This document shows, in pieces, positions 17,362 to 25,514 of a stretch of 45,383 nt of DNA; the first letter of the stretch is position 1, and every line of letters begins with the position of its first letter. Under the pieces are notes generated by a model that saw only the letters and a list, made by a program, of their open reading frames with translations, was not told the DNA's origin and made no database searches. Origin of the DNA: Aquaspirillum serpens DSM 68. GTDB taxonomy: Bacteria; Pseudomonadota; Gammaproteobacteria; Burkholderiales; Aquaspirillaceae. Location: contig NZ_ATVC01000011.1 in the NCBI RefSeq assembly GCF_000420525.1, forward strand, positions 1-45,383, given 5' to 3'. Both the position numbers and the translations under genes were made by a program.

Positions 17362-19171
17362 ATGCCTGCTTACAAAGCCCCTCTACGCGATTTCGACTTT
17401 GTGCTCAACGAGTTGATTGAAGTCCAAAATATCATTCCAACCTTGCCTGGCTATGAAGAAGCCACTGCCGATGTATTTGCGTCTTATCTCGAGGCCGGTG
17501 CCAAGTTTTGTGAAAATGAATTAGCACCTATTAACCGTGCTGCCGACGAGGCTGGTTGTGCTTATGACCCTGCTACCAAATCGGTGACTACGCCTGCTGG
17601 TTTTAAAGAGGCTTACCAACAATTCTGCGAATTGGGCTTTACTGGCTTGGATTGTGATCCCGAATATGGTGGTCAAGGGATGCCAAAAACCCTCGGTTTC
17701 CCGATCATGGAAATGCAGTGTTCTGCTAACGTTGCATGGTCGATGTACCCAGGTTTGAGTCATGGTGCTTACTCTGCCATCCATGCTCACGGCACCCCAG
17801 AACAAAAAGCGACTTACTTGCCTAAATTGGTGTCCGGTGAATGGACTGGCACCATGTGTTTAACTGAGCCACATTGCGGTACTGACTTGGGTTTATTAAA
17901 AACCCGCGCTGAACCGGCTGGGGATGGCAGTTATCTGATTACTGGTACCAAAATTTTTATCTCGGCAGGTAGGTGAACACGACTTGTCCGACAACATCAT
18001 TCACTTGGTGTTGGCACGTTTGCCTGACTCCCCGAAAGATGTGAAAGGGATTTCGCTGTTTATCGTGCCGAAATTCCTGATTAACGAAGATGGCTCGTTA
18101 GGCGAGCGTAATCCAGTGAGCTGTGGCGCGCTGGAACATAAAATGGGCATTAAAGCCAATGCTACTGCAGTGATTAACTTAGATGGTGCAAAAGGCTATC
18201 TGATTGGTGAGGTCAATAAAGGCTTGGCATGTATGTTCACCATGATGAACGCTGCGCGTTTAGGGTGTGGTATGCAAGGCTTAGGTTTGGGTGAGGCAGC
18301 GTTCCAAGGTGCGTTGGCATACGCTAAAGAGCGTTTGCAAATGCGTGCATTGAATGGGCCAAAAGCACCAGAAAAAGCTGCTGATCCAATCATCGTGCAT
18401 CCTGATGTCCGTCGTATGTTGTTGACCCAAAAGGCCTATACCGAAGCCGGTCGTGCTTTTACTGCTTTCTTGGCCTTGCAGTTGGACATTGAAGAAAAAT
18501 CGCCTGATGCCGAAGCCCGCCAAGAAGCGGCAGATTTGGTGGCCTTGTTAACCCCAGTGGCAAAAGCCTTTATGACCGACAATGGTTATCTGGCAACCAA
18601 TTTAGGGATGCAAGTGTTTGGCGGTCATGGCTTTATCCGCGAATGGGGGATGGAGCAGTTGGTGCGCGATTGCCGTATCTCGCAAATTTATGAAGGCACC
18701 AACGGAATTCAAGCGATTGACCTGTTAGGCCGTAAGGTGTTGATGGATCAGGGACAGAAGCTGCGTAAGTTTACTAAGCGCATCCACAAATTCTGCGAAG
18801 CAAACAGCGCCGACAGCCGTTTGACACCATTCCTCGAACCTTTAAACGGTTTGAACAAGCAAATGGCCGAAATCACCATGCAAATTGGCATGGGTGCGAT
18901 GATGAATAAAGATGAAGCTGGCGCGGCGGCAACGGATTATCTGCGCTTGGTGGGTCATCTGACGTATGGTTATTTCTGGGCGTGGATGGCAAAAGTCGCG
19001 CTTGAAAAGTTGGACGCTGGTAGTGCTGAGACGGGCTTCTATGAGGCGAAGGTGAAAACAGCGCAGTTCTATTTCAGCAAGCTGTTCCCTGAGATTCATA
19101 GCTTGATTGTGACGTTGAAAGCAGGCGCTAAGCCGTTGATGGATTTGGAAGAAGATCACTTTGCTTTCTAA
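17362..19171 (+). pseudogene. Acyl-CoA dehydrogenase, large (about 600 residues), frameshifted
   Basis: This is an FAD-dependent acyl-CoA dehydrogenase of the roughly 600-residue class with an extra C-terminal domain, the group that includes DmdC. The N-terminal part (MPAYKAPLRDFDFVLNELIE ... MCLTEPHCGTDLGLL) runs 17362-17976. A 4-bp tandem duplication AGGT at 17967-17974 brings in a stop. The remaining frame continues as EHDLSDNIIHLVLARLPD. It holds the flavin region, the catalytic Glu in IYEGTNGIQAIDLLG and the C-terminal helical domain to 19171. Removing one AGGT restores ISAGEHDLSDN. Substrate cannot be told from sequence. A strong terminator follows. Confidence 0.9.
17967..17974. repeat. 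4-bp tandem duplication in the acyl-CoA dehydrogenase
   Basis: AGGT at 17967-17970 is repeated at 17971-17974. One copy gives ISAGEHD, the expected protein sequence; two copies give ISAGR and a stop. Confidence 0.9.
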
Positions 19172-19217
19172 GGTGTGATCTGTGTAGTGCAGTCAAATTG
19201 GGTGTGGCTCTACTTGA

Positions 19218-19247
19218 ACAGCCTCTAGTGATAGAGGCTGTTTTTTT
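19218..19247 (+). terminator. Rho-independent terminator after the acyl-CoA dehydrogenase
   Basis: ACAGCCTCTA pairs perfectly with TAGAGGCTGT around a GTGA loop and is followed by seven T (19241-19247). It marks the left edge of the AT-rich insert. Confidence 0.93.
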
Positions 19248-19317
19248 ATGTGCATAGTAAATCGGTAGGTAGGTATGGTTACAAGTAACCCAATGTGGGT
19301 ATGATATTGTTTGTTAG

Positions 19318-19348
19318 TTCAATTTTTTGAAAAAATTAGCAGTATAAT
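19318..19348 (+). promoter_or_regulatory. Likely promoter of the AT-rich two-gene insert
   Basis: A perfect -10 TATAAT lies at 19343-19348. The best -35 is weak (TTCAAT at 19318-19323, spacing 19). It is 53 nt before the first gene of the insert, which has AAGGAG at its start. Nothing else is recognised in the 230-bp gap apart from the terminator and a GGTA triple repeat near 19264. Confidence 0.45.
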
Positions 19349-19401
19349 CCATAGCATGTTTTCTAACTTTTAGATATAAGATAAGAAGGAGATTGTTTTT
19401 C

Positions 19402-19854
19402 ATGGAGTCTTCGGAAATTTCAAAAATAATAGAATGTATTGCTCCTTTTGTATCAGTAGCATCCTTTTTAGTATCAATAGCATCTGCTGTCTTTGCTAAA
19501 ATAACTAGCAATGCAGCTAAAAAAGCAAATGATATTAATCTTCATGTGTACCAGAAAAAAATATATGATGCGTTCCTTGAGTTGAGAATGCATATGATTA
19601 TGAAAAGTATATCTGCTGAAATGTCAGAGGTGTCTAAATTTTATTACCCAGCAAAAGAAGCAGAGTTTTATTTCTCTTCAGAAATTGCAAAGCAATTTCA
19701 AACATTCTTTGATCTTTGCTTTGAGGTTGCTGATCTTGCTAGAGTTCAACGTACACCAACAGAATTATCTGAAGCTACTGATAAAGTCCATTTAGCATTA
19801 GGTATTGCTAAGCAACTAGAGGAAAAAATTATTGGAAAAATTACCCTTGTTTAG
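19402..19854 (+). CDS. Small membrane-anchored helical protein of unknown function
   Basis: I do not recognise this 150-residue protein. ATG 19402 has AAGGAGA at 19386-19392. A hydrophobic segment near the N-terminus (about residues 14-32, IAPFVSVASFLVSIASAVF) is probably one membrane helix. The rest looks like a cytoplasmic helical bundle, with IYDAFLELRMHMIM and a pattern KEAEFYFSSEIAKQF. That pattern recalls small uncharacterised one-helix proteins with an 'EAxFxFxxEI' motif, from memory only. Composition is much more AT-rich than the neighbours, like the DpnI-like gene 70 nt downstream. The two probably arrived together. A role in defence is a guess from association. Confidence 0.65.
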   Translation: MESSEISKIIECIAPFVSVASFLVSIASAVFAKITSNAAKKANDINLHVYQKKIYDAFLELRMHMIMKSISAEMSEVSKFYYPAKEAEFYFSSEIAKQFQTFFDLCFEVADLARVQRTPTELSEATDKVHLALGIAKQLEEKIIGKITLV

Positions 19855-19924
19855 AATAAAAAATGAACCATACTTGCTCACTTTTCTGTATTAAGAATTA
19901 CATATTGTTTGGTGGATTGTAAAA

Positions 19925-20656
19925 ATGATTTATAAAAACAAATCTCAGCTAGCTAGAGTCGAAACTGAAAATTGGGCATTAGCAAATCTTTTTTGTCCAA
20001 AGTGTAGTGTGGCTTTTATGGCAGAAAAGGCGAATACAAAAGTATTTGATTTTAGGTGCGCTTGTTGTGATGAAACTTACCAGCTCAAATCAACTTCTAA
20101 AAAAATAACAAGGAAGCTGCTTGGTTCGGAATATTATTCCTTTGTTAACGCAATAAAAAATAACAATTGCCCAAATTTTTTGATATTAGAATATAGTATT
20201 GTTGCTGATCATTTTTTTGTTAACAGAGTTATTTATATTGCAAAGGAATTTATTACAGAAGATGTTGTTGAAAAAAGGAAGCCTCTTTCTGTTGATGCGC
20301 GTAGGGCTGGTTGGACAGGGTACAATTTACTAATTGACCATATCCCGCTGGAGGCCATGATTACAATTTATGAAGAATCACAGTTTGTTTCAATTCAAAA
20401 TATACTCTTTGCTATAGAAAAATCTAAAAATATCAGCAAGAAAGATTGGGGTAATGAAATAATAAATATTATCAGAGAGCTTGCGGTTAATTTTTCATTG
20501 TCTGATATTTATAAATATGAAGAAAAACTGAAAATCCTTTTTCCAAAAAATAAGAATATCAAGCCAAAAATTAGACAGCAATTACAAATTCTTAGAGATG
20601 CAGGAAAGATTGATTTTCTAGATAGAGGTAAATATAAAAAATTAGATTTTCTTTGA
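19925..20656 (+). CDS. DpnI/Drg-family methyl-directed restriction endonuclease
   Basis: The protein (243 residues) resembles DpnI, which cuts GATC only when the adenine is methylated, along its length. A zinc finger C24-x2-C27 ... C45-x2-C48 surrounds the nuclease core. DpnI's catalytic Asp, Glu and Lys align with D42, Q53 and K55, so the Glu is Gln here. The family block RKPLSVDARRAGWTGYN is conserved. The C-terminal winged helix ends IRQQLQILRDAGKIDFL, then RGKYKKL, nearly as in DpnI. Related Drg proteins replace dam in some Neisseria. No methyltransferase lies beside it, as expected, since host DNA must lack Dam methylation. It is strongly AT-rich and probably acquired by transfer. Activity is uncertain because of the Gln. 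Confidence 0.9.
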   Translation: MIYKNKSQLARVETENWALANLFCPKCSVAFMAEKANTKVFDFRCACCDETYQLKSTSKKITRKLLGSEYYSFVNAIKNNNCPNFLILEYSIVADHFFVNRVIYIAKEFITEDVVEKRKPLSVDARRAGWTGYNLLIDHIPLEAMITIYEESQFVSIQNILFAIEKSKNISKKDWGNEIINIIRELAVNFSLSDIYKYEEKLKILFPKNKNIKPKIRQQLQILRDAGKIDFLDRGKYKKLDFL

Positions 20657-20693
20657 TTGAAATGTATGTAAATAAATCTGCATTAAAAACTAT

Positions 20694-20717
20694 AAAAAAA
20701 CCCGCACATTGTGCGGG
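20694..20717 (-). terminator. Rho-independent terminator after the acyl-CoA-binding protein gene
   Basis: CCCGCAC (20701-20707) pairs perfectly with GTGCGGG (20711-20717) around ATT. On the minus strand it is followed by TTTTTTT (20700-20694). It lies 21 nt past the stop of the minus-strand gene. It marks the right edge of the AT-rich insert. Confidence 0.9.
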
Positions 20718-20737
20718 TGAAGAGAGAGAAGCAGAAA

Positions 20738-20998
20738 TCACTTACCTAACAACCGATTGACCAAGTCAATATACGCTTGCATTGCGCTATCTGAAGATTG
20801 GCCTTTTAACTTTTCCCAAGCATCGTACTTACTGCGATTGATGAAATCCATCATCCCTGGGCGTTCGCCACTGACATCACCACTGCTAGCTTGTTTAAAC
20901 AAGGCATACAGCTGCAACAGGGTTTGTGGGTCTGGCTTTTCTGCCAGTGTTTTCACATCGGCTTGAGCTTGGGCAAACAAAGAGGCCAAATCAGACAT
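20738..20998 (-). CDS. Acyl-CoA-binding protein (ACBP)
   Basis: This is a small soluble four-helix protein that binds medium- and long-chain acyl-CoA esters and buffers their pool. The product is 86 residues from ATG 20998 (MSDLASLFAQAQADVKTL), the classic ACBP length. It shows LLQLYALFKQASSGD (the YxxYKQA-type binding motif with Phe-Lys-Gln) and KYDAWEKLKGQSSDSAMQAYI. An upstream ATG at 21064 would add 22 non-conserved residues; AAGGGA lies before 20998. ACBP is scattered in bacteria, and here it lies close to an acyl-CoA dehydrogenase on the other side of the AT-rich insert. Confidence 0.93.
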   Translation of the reverse strand: MSDLASLFAQAQADVKTLAEKPDPQTLLQLYALFKQASSGDVSGERPGMMDFINRSKYDAWEKLKGQSSDSAMQAYIDLVNRLLGK

Positions 20999-21076
20999 CG
21001 TATCTTTCCCTTGGTGGAAATCAGGAGATGGGCTGATTGTGCCAGTGGTTATCGATGCTGTCAAACAGTCGTTTGA

Positions 21077-21820
21077 TTATTTTTTCTGGTTCAACAGTTT
21101 TTCAATATCTTCCGCTGGAATTGCGCCAGCAACCAACTTACCGCTTTCAAAAATCAACGCCGGTGTGCCCTGAATGCCCAATTTCTGGCCTAAGGCTTGA
21201 ATCTCGGCCAAGGGTGTTTTGCAATCGCCGCTGCCACTGGTGGCTTGGTTATTGCGCATGGTTTGTGCCCACGCCTGTAGCTTATCTTTTGAACACCAAA
21301 TCTGTGCCGATTTACGCATTGCATCCGGATGTAATTGCTCTAATGGATAGAGAAAGGTGTAAATCGTGACATTATCGAGCTTGGCGAGGCCTTCTTTTTC
21401 TAACTTCTTGCAAAACGGGCAATCTGGATCAGAAAACACCGCGATTTTCCGCTGACCGTTACCACGTTTATCTTGAATGGCGTGCTGGAGGGGTAAGGTT
21501 TTCCAATCGACACGGGACAGTTCTGCCACCCGTTCCTCGGTGAGGCTCACTCGGCCTTCAATATCGATTAACTCACCAACAAACATGTGCGCAACTTTGG
21601 CATCGGTATAGACGACCTGCCGTCCAGCTAACACCACTTCATACACCCCACTGACTGGGCTGGCTTGTACCTGCACCACTTCACGTTGTGGAAACTTTTG
21701 GCTAAACAATTTTTTGACCGTTTGGCTTTCATCGGCGGCTTGCGCTTGGCAGGCGAGCAGGGTTGCGCTCAGGGTCAGTAACGTAGTGGTGCGCAAAAAG
21801 CGGCGGGGAATAGCAAACAA
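21077..21820 (-). CDS. dsbC: Thiol:disulfide interchange protein DsbC
   Basis: DsbC is the periplasmic disulfide isomerase that shuffles wrong disulfides. TTG 21820 follows AAGGAG and gives a signal peptide (MFAIPRRFLRTTTLLTLSATLLACQAQA) with a mature start at about Ala29. The N-terminal dimerisation domain is followed by a thioredoxin fold with C134-PF-C137 (FSDPDCPFCKKLEKEG). A second cysteine pair follows further on (WCSKDK ... SGDCKT). The longer ORF to 22006 overlaps ubiI and has no ribosome site. The active site is CPFC rather than the CGYC of E. coli DsbC. It is 10 nt after ubiI, probably co-transcribed. Confidence 0.9.
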   Translation of the reverse strand: MFAIPRRFLRTTTLLTLSATLLACQAQAADESQTVKKLFSQKFPQREVVQVQASPVSGVYEVVLAGRQVVYTDAKVAHMFVGELIDIEGRVSLTEERVAELSRVDWKTLPLQHAIQDKRGNGQRKIAVFSDPDCPFCKKLEKEGLAKLDNVTIYTFLYPLEQLHPDAMRKSAQIWCSKDKLQAWAQTMRNNQATSGSGDCKTPLAEIQALGQKLGIQGTPALIFESGKLVAGAIPAEDIEKLLNQKK

Positions 21821-21830
21821 AATACACTCC

Positions 21831-23000
21831 TTAAAAGCCGATGGCGTAACGTGCCAACTGGCGTTTGACTGGGCCAATATGGTTGGTGAGGTTGAGTCCG
21901 GTGTTGCGTACCCAACGCGATAACGGTAGTTGGGTATGGAACAACTGATGCAGTGCATCACATCCGAGTTGCATTGCCAGCACGGCTTCACGGCGGGCAC
22001 GTTCATAGCGCCGCAATAATAGCCATTCGCCTACATCGCTGCCCTTGGCATTGCCCAATAAGCGTTCTAATTCGCGGGCATCACCAAACCCTAGGTTGAC
22101 ACCTTGTCCGGCGAGAGGATGCACCGTGTGGGCGGCATCGCCAGCGAGTACCACCCGTTGGCTAATCATGTGTTCGGGTTGAATTAACCGCAGTGGGAAG
22201 GCTTGCGCGGGGGTGAGGGTGGTGAAATGCCCGAGGGCATGTTGGCCTGCAGCGGCAACTTTTTCGGCTAATACTTCGGCGGATAATGACAGTAAGGTAT
22301 CGGGGTTGGGATGAGACCAGACAATCGAAATGCGCTGTTGTGGCAACGGCAGCCACGCCAAAATACTGTCACCGACAAACCATTGACGGGCAATGTCCCC
22401 GTGTAAGTATTGGCAATGGAAATTTGCCACTACGCCCGATTGACCATAGGGTTTGATTTTTGCCTTGATGCCAATTTGTTCACGCACCCATGAATTGGCA
22501 CCATCACATCCAACCAGCAAAGCCGCTTCGAGCTGGCTGCCATCCTGTAGGGTGAGCAGCACTCGATCTGGTTCACGAACCAAAGCACTGACTTGGGCGG
22601 GGGTATAAAGCGAGACTTCGGACACCAACAACTGCTGCCAAATGCTATGCAACAGCCAACGGTTTTCGACAATCGATGCCAGCCGTTTTTGTTTAGCGTC
22701 GTGGGCATCGAACATAATTTCGCCACCGTGATCGCCCTTTACCTGCATGGCGTGGACATTACCAATTCGGTGTTCCTGTGGCCACGCGCCCAATTGTTCT
22801 AACCATTGGCGATTGGCTGGACTGATGGCATAAATTCGTGCATCCCACTCGTTGTCATCATCCAGTGTGGTTTGCCGTTCGCTGGGAGGATGCGGCTCAA
22901 TCACCGCAATGTGTAATCCTTTGCGGGACAACGCTAATGCTAAGCTAGCACCGACTAAGCCGCCACCCAGAATTACCACATCATAATGGGCTGTATTCAT
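21831..23000 (-). CDS. ubiI: UbiH/VisC/COQ6-family FAD monooxygenase, likely UbiI
   Basis: This is an FAD-dependent aromatic hydroxylase of the ubiquinone pathway. It has the dinucleotide-binding motif GGGLVGASLALALSRKGL near the start, the DARIYAISPANRQWL block, LLVGCDGANSWVRE, and the second FAD motif LAGDAAHTVHPLAGQGVNLGFGDA. The length is 389 residues. It lies 3 nt after ubiH, a paralogue, so the pair probably hydroxylates two different ring positions. Which paralogue does which step (UbiI C5, UbiF C6 or UbiH C4) cannot be fixed from sequence alone; VisC/UbiI is the best guess from gene order. Confidence 0.88.
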   Translation of the reverse strand: MNTAHYDVVILGGGLVGASLALALSRKGLHIAVIEPHPPSERQTTLDDDNEWDARIYAISPANRQWLEQLGAWPQEHRIGNVHAMQVKGDHGGEIMFDAHDAKQKRLASIVENRWLLHSIWQQLLVSEVSLYTPAQVSALVREPDRVLLTLQDGSQLEAALLVGCDGANSWVREQIGIKAKIKPYGQSGVVANFHCQYLHGDIARQWFVGDSILAWLPLPQQRISIVWSHPNPDTLLSLSAEVLAEKVAAAGQHALGHFTTLTPAQAFPLRLIQPEHMISQRVVLAGDAAHTVHPLAGQGVNLGFGDARELERLLGNAKGSDVGEWLLLRRYERARREAVLAMQLGCDALHQLFHTQLPLSRWVRNTGLNLTNHIGPVKRQLARYAIGF

Positions 23001-23003
23001 TGC

Positions 23004-24191
23004 TTAACGCTCCAAGCCAAAGACTAATTTATGCGTAAATCGCTGCCGTAGTGGGGTCAGCATGTCCAAAGCCGACAGCGCAATGCCGCGTCCCAAACGG
23101 CTGATAGGGTCGTGATGATCGAATAGACCAATCAGACTGTGGGTAAAAGCGGTAATGGTCAGACGGTCGCGTTGACGTTGGCGTTGGTAGCGGTGTAGCA
23201 ATGCCGGTGCGCCGATGTCGCGGACATTGGCTAATAATGGCAATAAGGTATCCGCATCACGCAAGCCAAGGTTTAACCCTTGTGCTGCCACTGGGTGTAG
23301 GGTTTGCGCTGCATTTCCCACCAATACCACCCGTCCGGCATGCAGTTTGTTCGCTAATTTTAAGCGCAGGGGAATGGCCTGTGGTGGGCTGACACAGGCG
23401 GCAAAACACAGTTTATGACCGCAAATTTGATGCAACGCATCAAGAAATTCAGCTGGCGAGCTATTGAGCAAGGCTTCGGCTGCAGCATGGCGGCGTGTCC
23501 ACACTAACATCATGTCTTGCCCAACTGGCAGTAAAGCAAAGGGCCCACCTTCGGCAAAGCGTTCATAAGCGATATGTTGGTGTTGATAACCCTCGGCGAG
23601 GGCTAAACGGCACAATAGAGCCGATTGTTCATAGTCGTGCACATGATGGTGCAGACTGGGGAGTTGCTGTAAAACACTGCCGCCCTCGGCGGCAATCAGT
23701 AGTTTGCTGGTCAACAGTTGTTGACCGTGTTCGGGGTGTTGAATGGTTAAGCTGGTATAGGTGGCGAGATTACCAATTTTTTCCCCACGCCAACCTTGAA
23801 ACAAGTGGATGGGCGCTTGGTTGAGTGCCTGTCCCACCGCTTGGTCGAGATCGTGATAGGCGATGGTATAACCCAAGTCGCTGACACCAATATCGGCCCC
23901 ACTGAGTAAAGTACGGCCAAAGGCCCCTGCTTGGCTGACGTGGACTTGTTGAATTGCCGTCAGTTGGTCGGGGGGGAGGGTGATGCCGGCTTGTTGTAAC
24001 AAGTCCACGCTCAAGCGCGAAAGTGCCAAAATACGCGGGTCTTGTGCCGCGCTGTCGGTATTGGGACGGCTGGCACGGGCTTCAACAACCGCCACCCGTC
24101 GCCCTTGCTTTGCCAACTGTAGCGCAAGGACGGTACCCACTGGGCCAGCCCCGATAATGATGGCATCAAAGTCATGACTTATCGTTTGCAT
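23004..24191 (-). CDS. ubiH: 2-octaprenyl-6-methoxyphenyl hydroxylase UbiH
   Basis: This is a ubiquinone biosynthesis FAD monooxygenase. It has IIGAGPVGTVLALQLAKQGRRV near the N-terminus, the DPRILALSRLSVDLLQQAGI block, LLIAAEGGSVLQQL, and VLVGNAAQTLHPVAAQGLNLGLRDADTL near residue 290. The product is 395 residues. It starts 6 nt after pepP and is followed 3 nt later by ubiI; pepP-ubiH-ubiI is a well-known proteobacterial arrangement. Assignment as UbiH rather than another paralogue rests on order and the GNAAQTLHP motif. Confidence 0.92.
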   Translation of the reverse strand: MQTISHDFDAIIIGAGPVGTVLALQLAKQGRRVAVVEARASRPNTDSAAQDPRILALSRLSVDLLQQAGITLPPDQLTAIQQVHVSQAGAFGRTLLSGADIGVSDLGYTIAYHDLDQAVGQALNQAPIHLFQGWRGEKIGNLATYTSLTIQHPEHGQQLLTSKLLIAAEGGSVLQQLPSLHHHVHDYEQSALLCRLALAEGYQHQHIAYERFAEGGPFALLPVGQDMMLVWTRRHAAAEALLNSSPAEFLDALHQICGHKLCFAACVSPPQAIPLRLKLANKLHAGRVVLVGNAAQTLHPVAAQGLNLGLRDADTLLPLLANVRDIGAPALLHRYQRQRQRDRLTITAFTHSLIGLFDHHDPISRLGRGIALSALDMLTPLRQRFTHKLVFGLER

Positions 24192-24197
24192 GATGGG

Positions 24198-25514
24198 TTA
24201 TCCCTTCGTGGTTGCCATCAATGTCTCAATCGCCACCGGATCAGTCGGAACTTCGGCCGTCAGCACTTCATGTCCCTGTTCGGTGATTAACACATCGTCT
24301 TCAATACGGATGCCAATATTGGCGAATTCAGCAGGTACACCGTCGCCAGCTCGGATATATAAGCCTGGTTCGATGGTGGTTACCATCCCTGCTTGTAGCG
24401 GTCGCCATACCCCTTGTTGCTTATACGCTCCAACATCGTGGACATCCAAGCCCAGCCAATGGCCGATGCGGTGCATATAAAAACGTTTGTAGCTTTCGTT
24501 TTCGATATTGCTGTCAACGCTGCCTTGTAATAAGCCTAAATCGATCAGGCCCTGTACCAAAATGGTGAGGGCGGCATTGGCTGGGGTATCCCAACTTGCT
24601 CCAACCTGACACGCGGCAATCGCTGCTTGCTGACTAGCCAACACAATGTCGTACACCGCTCGTTGCGCGGCAGTGAAACGGCCATTGATTGGGAAGGTGC
24701 GCGTAATATCGCCGGCGTAACCGTGGTATTCACACCCCGCATCAATCAGCAACAACTCACCATCACGCAGGCGATCGCGATTGCTGACATAGTGCAAGAC
24801 ACAGGCATTTTTACCGCTGGCAACGATGGATTCATAGGCTGGTGAACGTGCGCCACTGGCCACGAAATGATGCAGCAACACTGCTTCAATTTCATATTCA
24901 TAGCGCCCTGGGCGGCTGGCTTGCATGGCAAGGCGGTGGGCTTGGGCGGAAATACGGGCAGCTTGGCGCAGTAAGGTGCGCTCGTGTTCATCCTTGAACA
25001 AACGCATTTCTGCCAGCAAAGGTTGCAAATCATGCAACTGCGATGGAGCCTGAATGCCTAAACGCGCTTTGCTACGAACTTGGTCTAGCCAATCGAACAC
25101 TTGCTTATCAAAATTGGCACATTGGCCCAATGGGTAGTAAATCGCTGGTCGGTCTGCCAGATAGGTTGGCATCTGGTTGGCTAATTCCTCGATCGGATGC
25201 GCTTCATCAAACGAAAATTCCTCAGCCGCTGCCGCAGGGCCATAGCGGAAACCGTCCCAAATCTCGCGTTCTTCGTGTTTACTGCGGCAAAACAAAATAC
25301 TTTTACCTGTCCGGCCATCTAATACCACCACCGCCTCGGGTTCGGTAAAACCCGTCAGATAGTAAAAGTTGCTATCAAAGCGATAGGGGTAGTGGGCATC
25401 GGCATTGCGCTGGCGCTCTGGTGCGGTGGCTAAGACCACCACACTATCGCCCACCTGCTGCAAGAGATGTTGTCGGCGATGAAGATAAACCGAGGCAGGA
25501 TGGGCGATAGACAT
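24198..25514 (-). CDS. pepP: Xaa-Pro aminopeptidase PepP
   Basis: PepP is a cytoplasmic aminopeptidase P (M24B) that removes N-terminal residues before proline, with two metal ions. The N-terminal creatinase-like domain includes FYYLTGFTEPEAVVVL. The C-terminal pita-bread domain carries the metal ligands: Asp in LLIDAGCEYHGYAGDITRTFP (two), His in HRIGHWLGLDVHDVG, and Glu in TIEPGLYI and IGIRIEDDV. The length of 438 residues is normal. It lies 32 nt after yebC and 6 nt before ubiH. Confidence 0.96.
   Translation of the reverse strand: MSIAHPASVYLHRRQHLLQQVGDSVVVLATAPERQRNADAHYPYRFDSNFYYLTGFTEPEAVVVLDGRTGKSILFCRSKHEEREIWDGFRYGPAAAAEEFSFDEAHPIEELANQMPTYLADRPAIYYPLGQCANFDKQVFDWLDQVRSKARLGIQAPSQLHDLQPLLAEMRLFKDEHERTLLRQAARISAQAHRLAMQASRPGRYEYEIEAVLLHHFVASGARSPAYESIVASGKNACVLHYVSNRDRLRDGELLLIDAGCEYHGYAGDITRTFPINGRFTAAQRAVYDIVLASQQAAIAACQVGASWDTPANAALTILVQGLIDLGLLQGSVDSNIENESYKRFYMHRIGHWLGLDVHDVGAYKQQGVWRPLQAGMVTTIEPGLYIRAGDGVPAEFANIGIRIEDDVLITEQGHEVLTAEVPTDPVAIETLMATTKG

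Follow-up and report, generated by a model that had tools for sequence, protein, structure and literature searches.

Aquaspirillum serpens DSM 68 very probably owns a solitary type IIM enzyme of the DpnI family that would restrict Dam-methylated foreign DNA. Its gene lies in the 45,383-nucleotide stretch of contig NZ_ATVC01000011.1 analysed here (the window), is an orphan and is located away from any dam locus. In the mechanism that we propose, the protein, if expressed, would recognise the closely spaced pair of methyl groups in fully methylated Gm6ATC twice, once with its winged helix and once with its catalytic domain; the latter, holding its metal on D42 and Q53 and assisted by K55, would cut within the GATC site. 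Since the host has no recognisable Dam, its own GATC sites should be unmethylated, so that the DNA cut would be incoming only, from Dam-positive hosts or Dam-carrying phages.

Identity and contact residues of the nuclease

The reading frame contains no internal stop over its 243 codons. The encoded protein matched the Pfam profiles PF06044 (DpnI; 5.7e-45, 153.6 bits versus a cut-off of 26.7) and PF17726 (DpnI_C; 1e-26, 93.3 bits versus a cut-off of 23), as well as the PADLOC profile mREase_II for methyl-directed type II enzymes (2e-54). Its sole sequence match in the PDB was R.DpnI (4esj; 1.1e-42, residues 3-240). These E-values rule out a chance match. A structure predicted from the window protein and 43 relatives reached a mean pLDDT of 91.3 and a pTM of 0.71, and its top Foldseek match was again R.DpnI (4kyw, 1.9e-24). 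Structure comparison gave Z scores of 22.6 against 4kyw (235 residues aligned, rmsd 10.2) and 20.6 against 4esj; so high an rmsd would be in keeping with the freely oriented domains reported for R.DpnI (PMC4117772). Judged by sequence and predicted model, the window protein is a full-length DpnI-family nuclease. Mobile-element searches matched it on plasmids to two Neisseria gonorrhoeae records (2.2 Mb) and to four sequences by the winged helix only, and the single phage match and three viral-contig matches were likewise confined to the winged helix.

Residues of R.DpnI that bind the metal, contact the G:C pairs or contact the methyl groups were taken from PMC4117772 and compared with the window protein by alignment. 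In the catalytic domain, 10 of the 12 positions compared are identical: Q18, N48, D53, L65, K66, R126, L129, R135, W138 and G140 of R.DpnI are kept as Q8, N37, D42, L54, K55, R118, L121, R127, W130 and G132. The other two differ, E64 being replaced by Q53 and D78, which touches DNA by its main chain (PMC4117772), by G67. All four zinc cysteines are retained (C24, C27, C45 and C48), as are the DNA-binding residues K229 and R231 of the winged helix (K215 and R217 here), whose loss impairs R.DpnI (PMC4117772). The active site is of the PD-(D/E)XK-like type, D42...Q53-x-K55, and follows the family pattern Asp...(E or Q)-x-Lys.

Family membership had been proposed in a first-pass annotation from the zinc cysteines, D42, Q53-x-K55, an RKPL...ARRAGWTGYN block and the winged helix. 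All of these features are present, and the proposal is borne out by profile, sequence and predicted structure. The match of the nuclease core claimed there holds for D42 and K55; the presence of Gln at the position of Glu64 had passed unremarked.

The kept residues also bear on an unlikely alternative, a DpnI-fold nuclease that would need adenine methylation in another or looser context than GATC. The long branch of the window protein (see below) and the change of the conserved D78 to G would suit such an enzyme; moreover, the winged helix of R.DpnI already tolerates Sm6ATS, and another modified context is listed among the escapes from genomic conflicts (both PMC11037411). However, R118, R127, N37, Q8 and W130, the readers of both outer G:C pairs and of the methyl groups, are all kept.

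Features of the window around the nuclease gene (positions of the whole stretch)
Feature	Positions	Strand	Basis
AT-rich stretch, 30.2% GC, holding the nuclease gene and one small ORF	19244..20699		GC count, hairpins
Hairpin resembling a terminator, downstream of the acyl-CoA dehydrogenase gene	19216..19243	+	Hairpin search
Hairpin resembling a terminator, downstream of the acyl-CoA-binding protein gene	20700..20718	-	Hairpin search
150-aa ORF, no assigned family	19402..19854	+	ORF list
DpnI-family (type IIM) endonuclease gene, 243 aa	19925..20656	+	ATG start, intact frame; Pfam, PDB and PADLOC matches
Catalytic domain at the N terminus, PF06044, residues 3-172	19931..20440	+	Pfam; strands and helices of the predicted model
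C-terminal winged-helix domain, PF17726, aa 171-239	20435..20641	+	Pfam; K215 and R217 equal to R.DpnI K229 and R231
D42 codon, equal to catalytic D53 of R.DpnI	20048..20050	+	Residue comparison
Q53-L54-K55 codons, equal to R.DpnI E64-L65-K66, Glu to Gln	20081..20089	+	Residue comparison
W130 codon, equal to W138 of R.DpnI, main contact to both methyl groups	20312..20314	+	Residue comparison; PMC4117772

The AT-rich stretch and its neighbours

The nuclease gene had been described as lying alone in an AT-rich insert. The stretch is indeed AT-rich, with 30.2% GC versus 48.7% at 17362-19171 and 52.1% at 20738-25514, and it is bounded by the facing terminator-like hairpins of two convergent neighbours (two found versus 0.5 expected from shuffles), identified by Pfam as acyl-CoA dehydrogenase and acyl-CoA-binding protein genes. 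Its composition suggests that the stretch was acquired and makes it a putative insert, but an empty site was not found in relatives: the acyl-CoA-binding protein occurs in 5 of 6 genomes of the host's family, and, among 15 other window proteins compared, none matched beside it in four relatives. As for lying alone, no methylase was found among the neighbour genes scanned with Pfam, but the stretch does hold a second ORF, of 150 codons.

This 150-aa ORF has no family in Pfam (E 0.1), NCBIfam or PADLOC, gave only weak PHROG matches (E 0.018-0.06) and no match in the plasmid, phage and viral-contig searches. Among 300 genomes of the order it matched five, the host, G004, G005, G079 and G149, and a search for DpnI in the last four gave no match. 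An obligate partnership with the nuclease was rejected, as these relatives sit in four genomes without DpnI. In G004 the relative lies about 5 kb from an acyl-CoA dehydrogenase gene whose product is 44-46% identical to that of the window. The family (L191, L192 and L193 besides the window member) has an apparently hydrophobic N-terminal stretch and is scattered in the order.

The N- and C-terminal parts of the window acyl-CoA dehydrogenase are encoded in different frames (17362-17976 and 17984-19171), and both parts were matched in one frame in the G004 relative (L196). The split points either to a disrupted frame or to an error in the assembly.

The Q-x-K form and the methylases beside family members

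A genome scan gave at least 592 pattern matches, including at least 532 relatives. The best 80 of these at least 532, picked by likeness to the window protein, were retained and joined by five loci of the order (L002-L005 and L007), yielding an 85-locus sample biased towards the window protein. At the position of Glu64 these loci (best 80 of at least 532, plus five) have E in 55 cases and Q in 30, a proportion that describes a window-biased sample and not the family as a whole. The Q loci of this sample (best 80 of at least 532, plus five) keep D53 and K66 in 30 of 30 cases and W138 in 29 of 30. Only 2 changes are required to place the Q label on an 86-row tree, versus 25 in shuffles, and the window protein falls inside a supported 28-row set (26 Q and 2 E). 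Its placement is unsure because its branch is long (2.14 versus a median of 0.39, one of the two longest of the tree), which indicates that the sequence has drifted. The Q-x-K members with which it groups come from archaea, Nitrospirota, Acidobacteriota and other lineages (L018-L026 and others) and share the same Gln; they reach at most 45-46% identity to the window protein (L018), and several have a methylase gene alongside, whereas the window gene has none. One of the loci of the order, L007 (genome G041), carries at 907-1353 a DpnI-domain ORF of 148 aa with a Q-x-K site; its match ends short of the profile end, and the reading frame is too short to hold a winged helix.

Gln at this position is compatible with activity in other nucleases. 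NhoI (QVK) and Eco15I (QIK), in which Gln binds the metal together with Asp, are both active (PMC11347163), and further Q-x-K sites are described in the BisI family (PMC4926085) and in type ISP enzymes (PMC3874165). PMC11037411 uses 'QXK' for Mrr-type fusions only, and our literature search found no assay of a Q-form DpnI. Because Q-x-K occurs in 30 of the 85 loci of the biased sample (best 80 of at least 532, plus five) and BisI enzymes with this motif are active, we predict that the window enzyme is likely to be active despite the change of Glu to Gln.

Dam genes were sought in 50 genomes (29 Q, 21 E) drawn from the best 80 of at least 532 loci. None of the 29 Q genomes had a Dam score over the cut-off, versus 4 of the 21 E genomes (p 0.026; mostly MAGs, from lineages that are not independent); at E 0.001 the counts were 4 of 29 Q and 6 of 21 E genomes of the same mostly MAG sample (p 0.29). 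The four E genomes over the cut-off are those of L040, L059, L069 and L076; the match of L059 is shortened and adjoins DpnI, and full-length Dam matches lie elsewhere in the genomes of L040 and L069. Mutual exclusion of DpnI and Dam thus appears not to be strict in the family, or else the methylases concerned are unexpressed or act at different sites.

These data argue against a second alternative, that cleavage was lost through the Glu-to-Gln change and drift, leaving a decaying gene or a mere binder of methyl-GATC. The replacement of a metal ligand (E64 to Q), D78 to G and the long branch would be expected of such a protein, but the frame is intact; Q is present in 30 of 85 loci (best 80 of at least 532, plus five), all with D53 and K66; the Q forms cluster in the tree almost without intermixing, with two changes in 86 rows; Q-x-K serves as the active site of BisI-family and type ISP enzymes (PMC11347163, PMC4926085, PMC3874165); and the Dam counts over the cut-off give no hint that Q forms tolerate Dam, the difference having p 0.29 at E 0.001. 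We consider loss of cleavage very unlikely.

Methylase genes adjoin DpnI at a number of loci. An ORF for an N6/N4 methylase of the PF01555 type lies within the stored flanks of 18 of the 85 loci (best 80 of at least 532, plus five). Nine of these 18 are of the permuted type, all at most 210 bp from DpnI (L019, L020, L021, L022, L030, L033, L035, L040 and L066 of the same sample, best 80 of at least 532, plus five); Pfam confirms the methylase family in five of the nine, the other four resting on the flank survey. The permuted methylase accompanies 7 of 30 Q loci versus 2 of 55 E loci (p 0.008; best 80 of at least 532, plus five), and five of the seven Q cases form one clade of the 86-row tree. 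This adjacency could be taken to mean that the window gene once belonged to a conventional restriction-modification pair and encodes its remaining nuclease, which would cut unmethylated DNA. That reading is exceedingly improbable: a single clade accounts for five of the seven Q cases, the methyl-binding pocket is kept in the window protein, and the D12, TIGR00571 and PF01555 searches revealed no methylase in the host that would protect its GATC sites.

A D12 methylase ORF or a piece of one lies directly upstream of DpnI at 8 of the 85 loci (best 80 of at least 532, plus five). The dam pieces span about 25 residues in L085, about 70 in L069, L075 and L076, and 240-250 in L059 and L079; dam is nearly whole in L091 and L095. 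DpnI genes directly behind dam genes or remnants were seen in several phyla (L045, L059, L069, L075, L076, L079, L085, L091 and L095), and the upstream pieces resemble the drg insertions of Neisseria (PMC4269198). Adjacency of methylase and DpnI is not new in kind: PMC11037411 already describes more than 1,000 fusion proteins with the winged helix, 87% of which lack an adjacent methylase; some do have one, broken in named cases.

A more speculative idea, which we hold to be quite improbable, is that the Q-x-K half of the family is a functionally distinct branch in which the permuted N6/N4 methylase adjacent to several members might set a modification, such as m4C in GATC, by which host GATC is protected from the Dam of an incoming phage and hence from the nuclease of the host itself; in that case the window gene would be an orphan of this branch that moved into a Dam-less betaproteobacterial lineage.

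Methylation in the host and likeness to known systems

For a solitary enzyme restricting Dam-methylated DNA, the role already proposed in the first-pass annotation, the host should lack Dam, as was predicted there. In the genome (2,612,795 bases, completeness rating 99.97%) profile searches for D12 methylases, and for Dam with TIGR00571, gave no match. PF01555 gave four matches in three genes, all on contigs other than that of the window: one adjoins an MvaI/BcnI endonuclease gene (C30, L115), one is the modification gene of a type III system, accompanied by the restriction gene of that system (C9, L130), and one is a BREX PglX gene next to BrxC (C6, L127). Type III and BREX systems methylate a single strand, and relatives of MvaI/BcnI act on CCNGG-like sites, so none of the three should make fully methylated GATC. 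None of these PF01555 methylases is of the Dam or DpnA type, the search for methylases covering D12, TIGR00571 and PF01555. MutH and SeqA are absent from the host, an uninformative result because they are absent from all 12 genomes searched.

Across 300 genomes of the order, TIGR00571 gave any match in 47 and a match over the cut-off in 24. The absence of Dam from the host lends the proposed role weak support, because most of the order also lacks dam. DpnI occurs in 7 of the 300 genomes. G125, one of the seven, carries two Dam-family genes together with a DpnI split over two reading frames (L006/L008, L012, L016); in G133 a D12 match covers 51 positions.

GATC counts were ambiguous. Over 440,383 host bases the maximal-order Markov ratio of GATC was 0.63, the lowest of 16 palindromes, and its Karlin-type ratio was 0.89 (rank 4 of 16), above the limit of 0.78 used in PMC4687349. 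The GATC ratio was 0.98-0.99 in relatives without DpnI, and the Markov ratio was 0.72 in G004, which also lacks DpnI. The host does not clearly avoid GATC. Counted against restriction of Dam-methylated DNA are E64Q, D78G, the long branch, the rarity of Dam in the order, the non-strict exclusion of Dam and the lack of clear GATC avoidance.

The gene adds a divergent Q-x-K member from a new lineage to the DpnI family and points to the uncharacterised Q-x-K part of that family. The general view of restriction is unchanged. The reading predicts that plasmid or phage DNA from a Dam-plus source would be cut on entry into the host bacterium.

Among known systems, a conventional restriction-modification pair needs an adjacent cognate methylase, and the window gene has none. 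NhoI and Eco15I of the BisI family share the Q-x-K motif and match the fold of the catalytic domain (Z 9.3), but they have no winged helix and target 5-methylcytosine (PMC11347163). Drg (NmeBII), the product of the dam-replacing gene of Neisseria, belongs to the DpnI family and is encoded by an AT-rich gene in a richer genome of a host without Dam (PMC4269198); a protein of G134 that is likely to be of the Neisseria type shares 38% identity with the window protein. Drg occupies the leuS/dam locus (PMC4269198), whereas the window gene is flanked by the acyl-CoA dehydrogenase and acyl-CoA-binding protein genes, in a genome where the D12 and TIGR00571 searches found no dam piece. With R.DpnI of Streptococcus pneumoniae (4esj, 4kyw) the window protein shares length, domains, zinc cysteines and contacts to GATC and methyl groups at 38% identity, and it has Gln and Gly in place of Glu64 and Asp78. 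In the pneumococcal cassette, DpnD is the gene beside that of R.DpnI, and DpnC is the name of the R.DpnI gene itself. A DpnD-like second gene was not recognised in the window stretch, whose 150-aa ORF has no Pfam family; the earlier description of the locus as lacking DpnC is a slip. By its sequence, the window enzyme is an ordinary, somewhat divergent DpnI member, and the change of Glu to Gln in its active site is shared by roughly one in three of the relatives compared.
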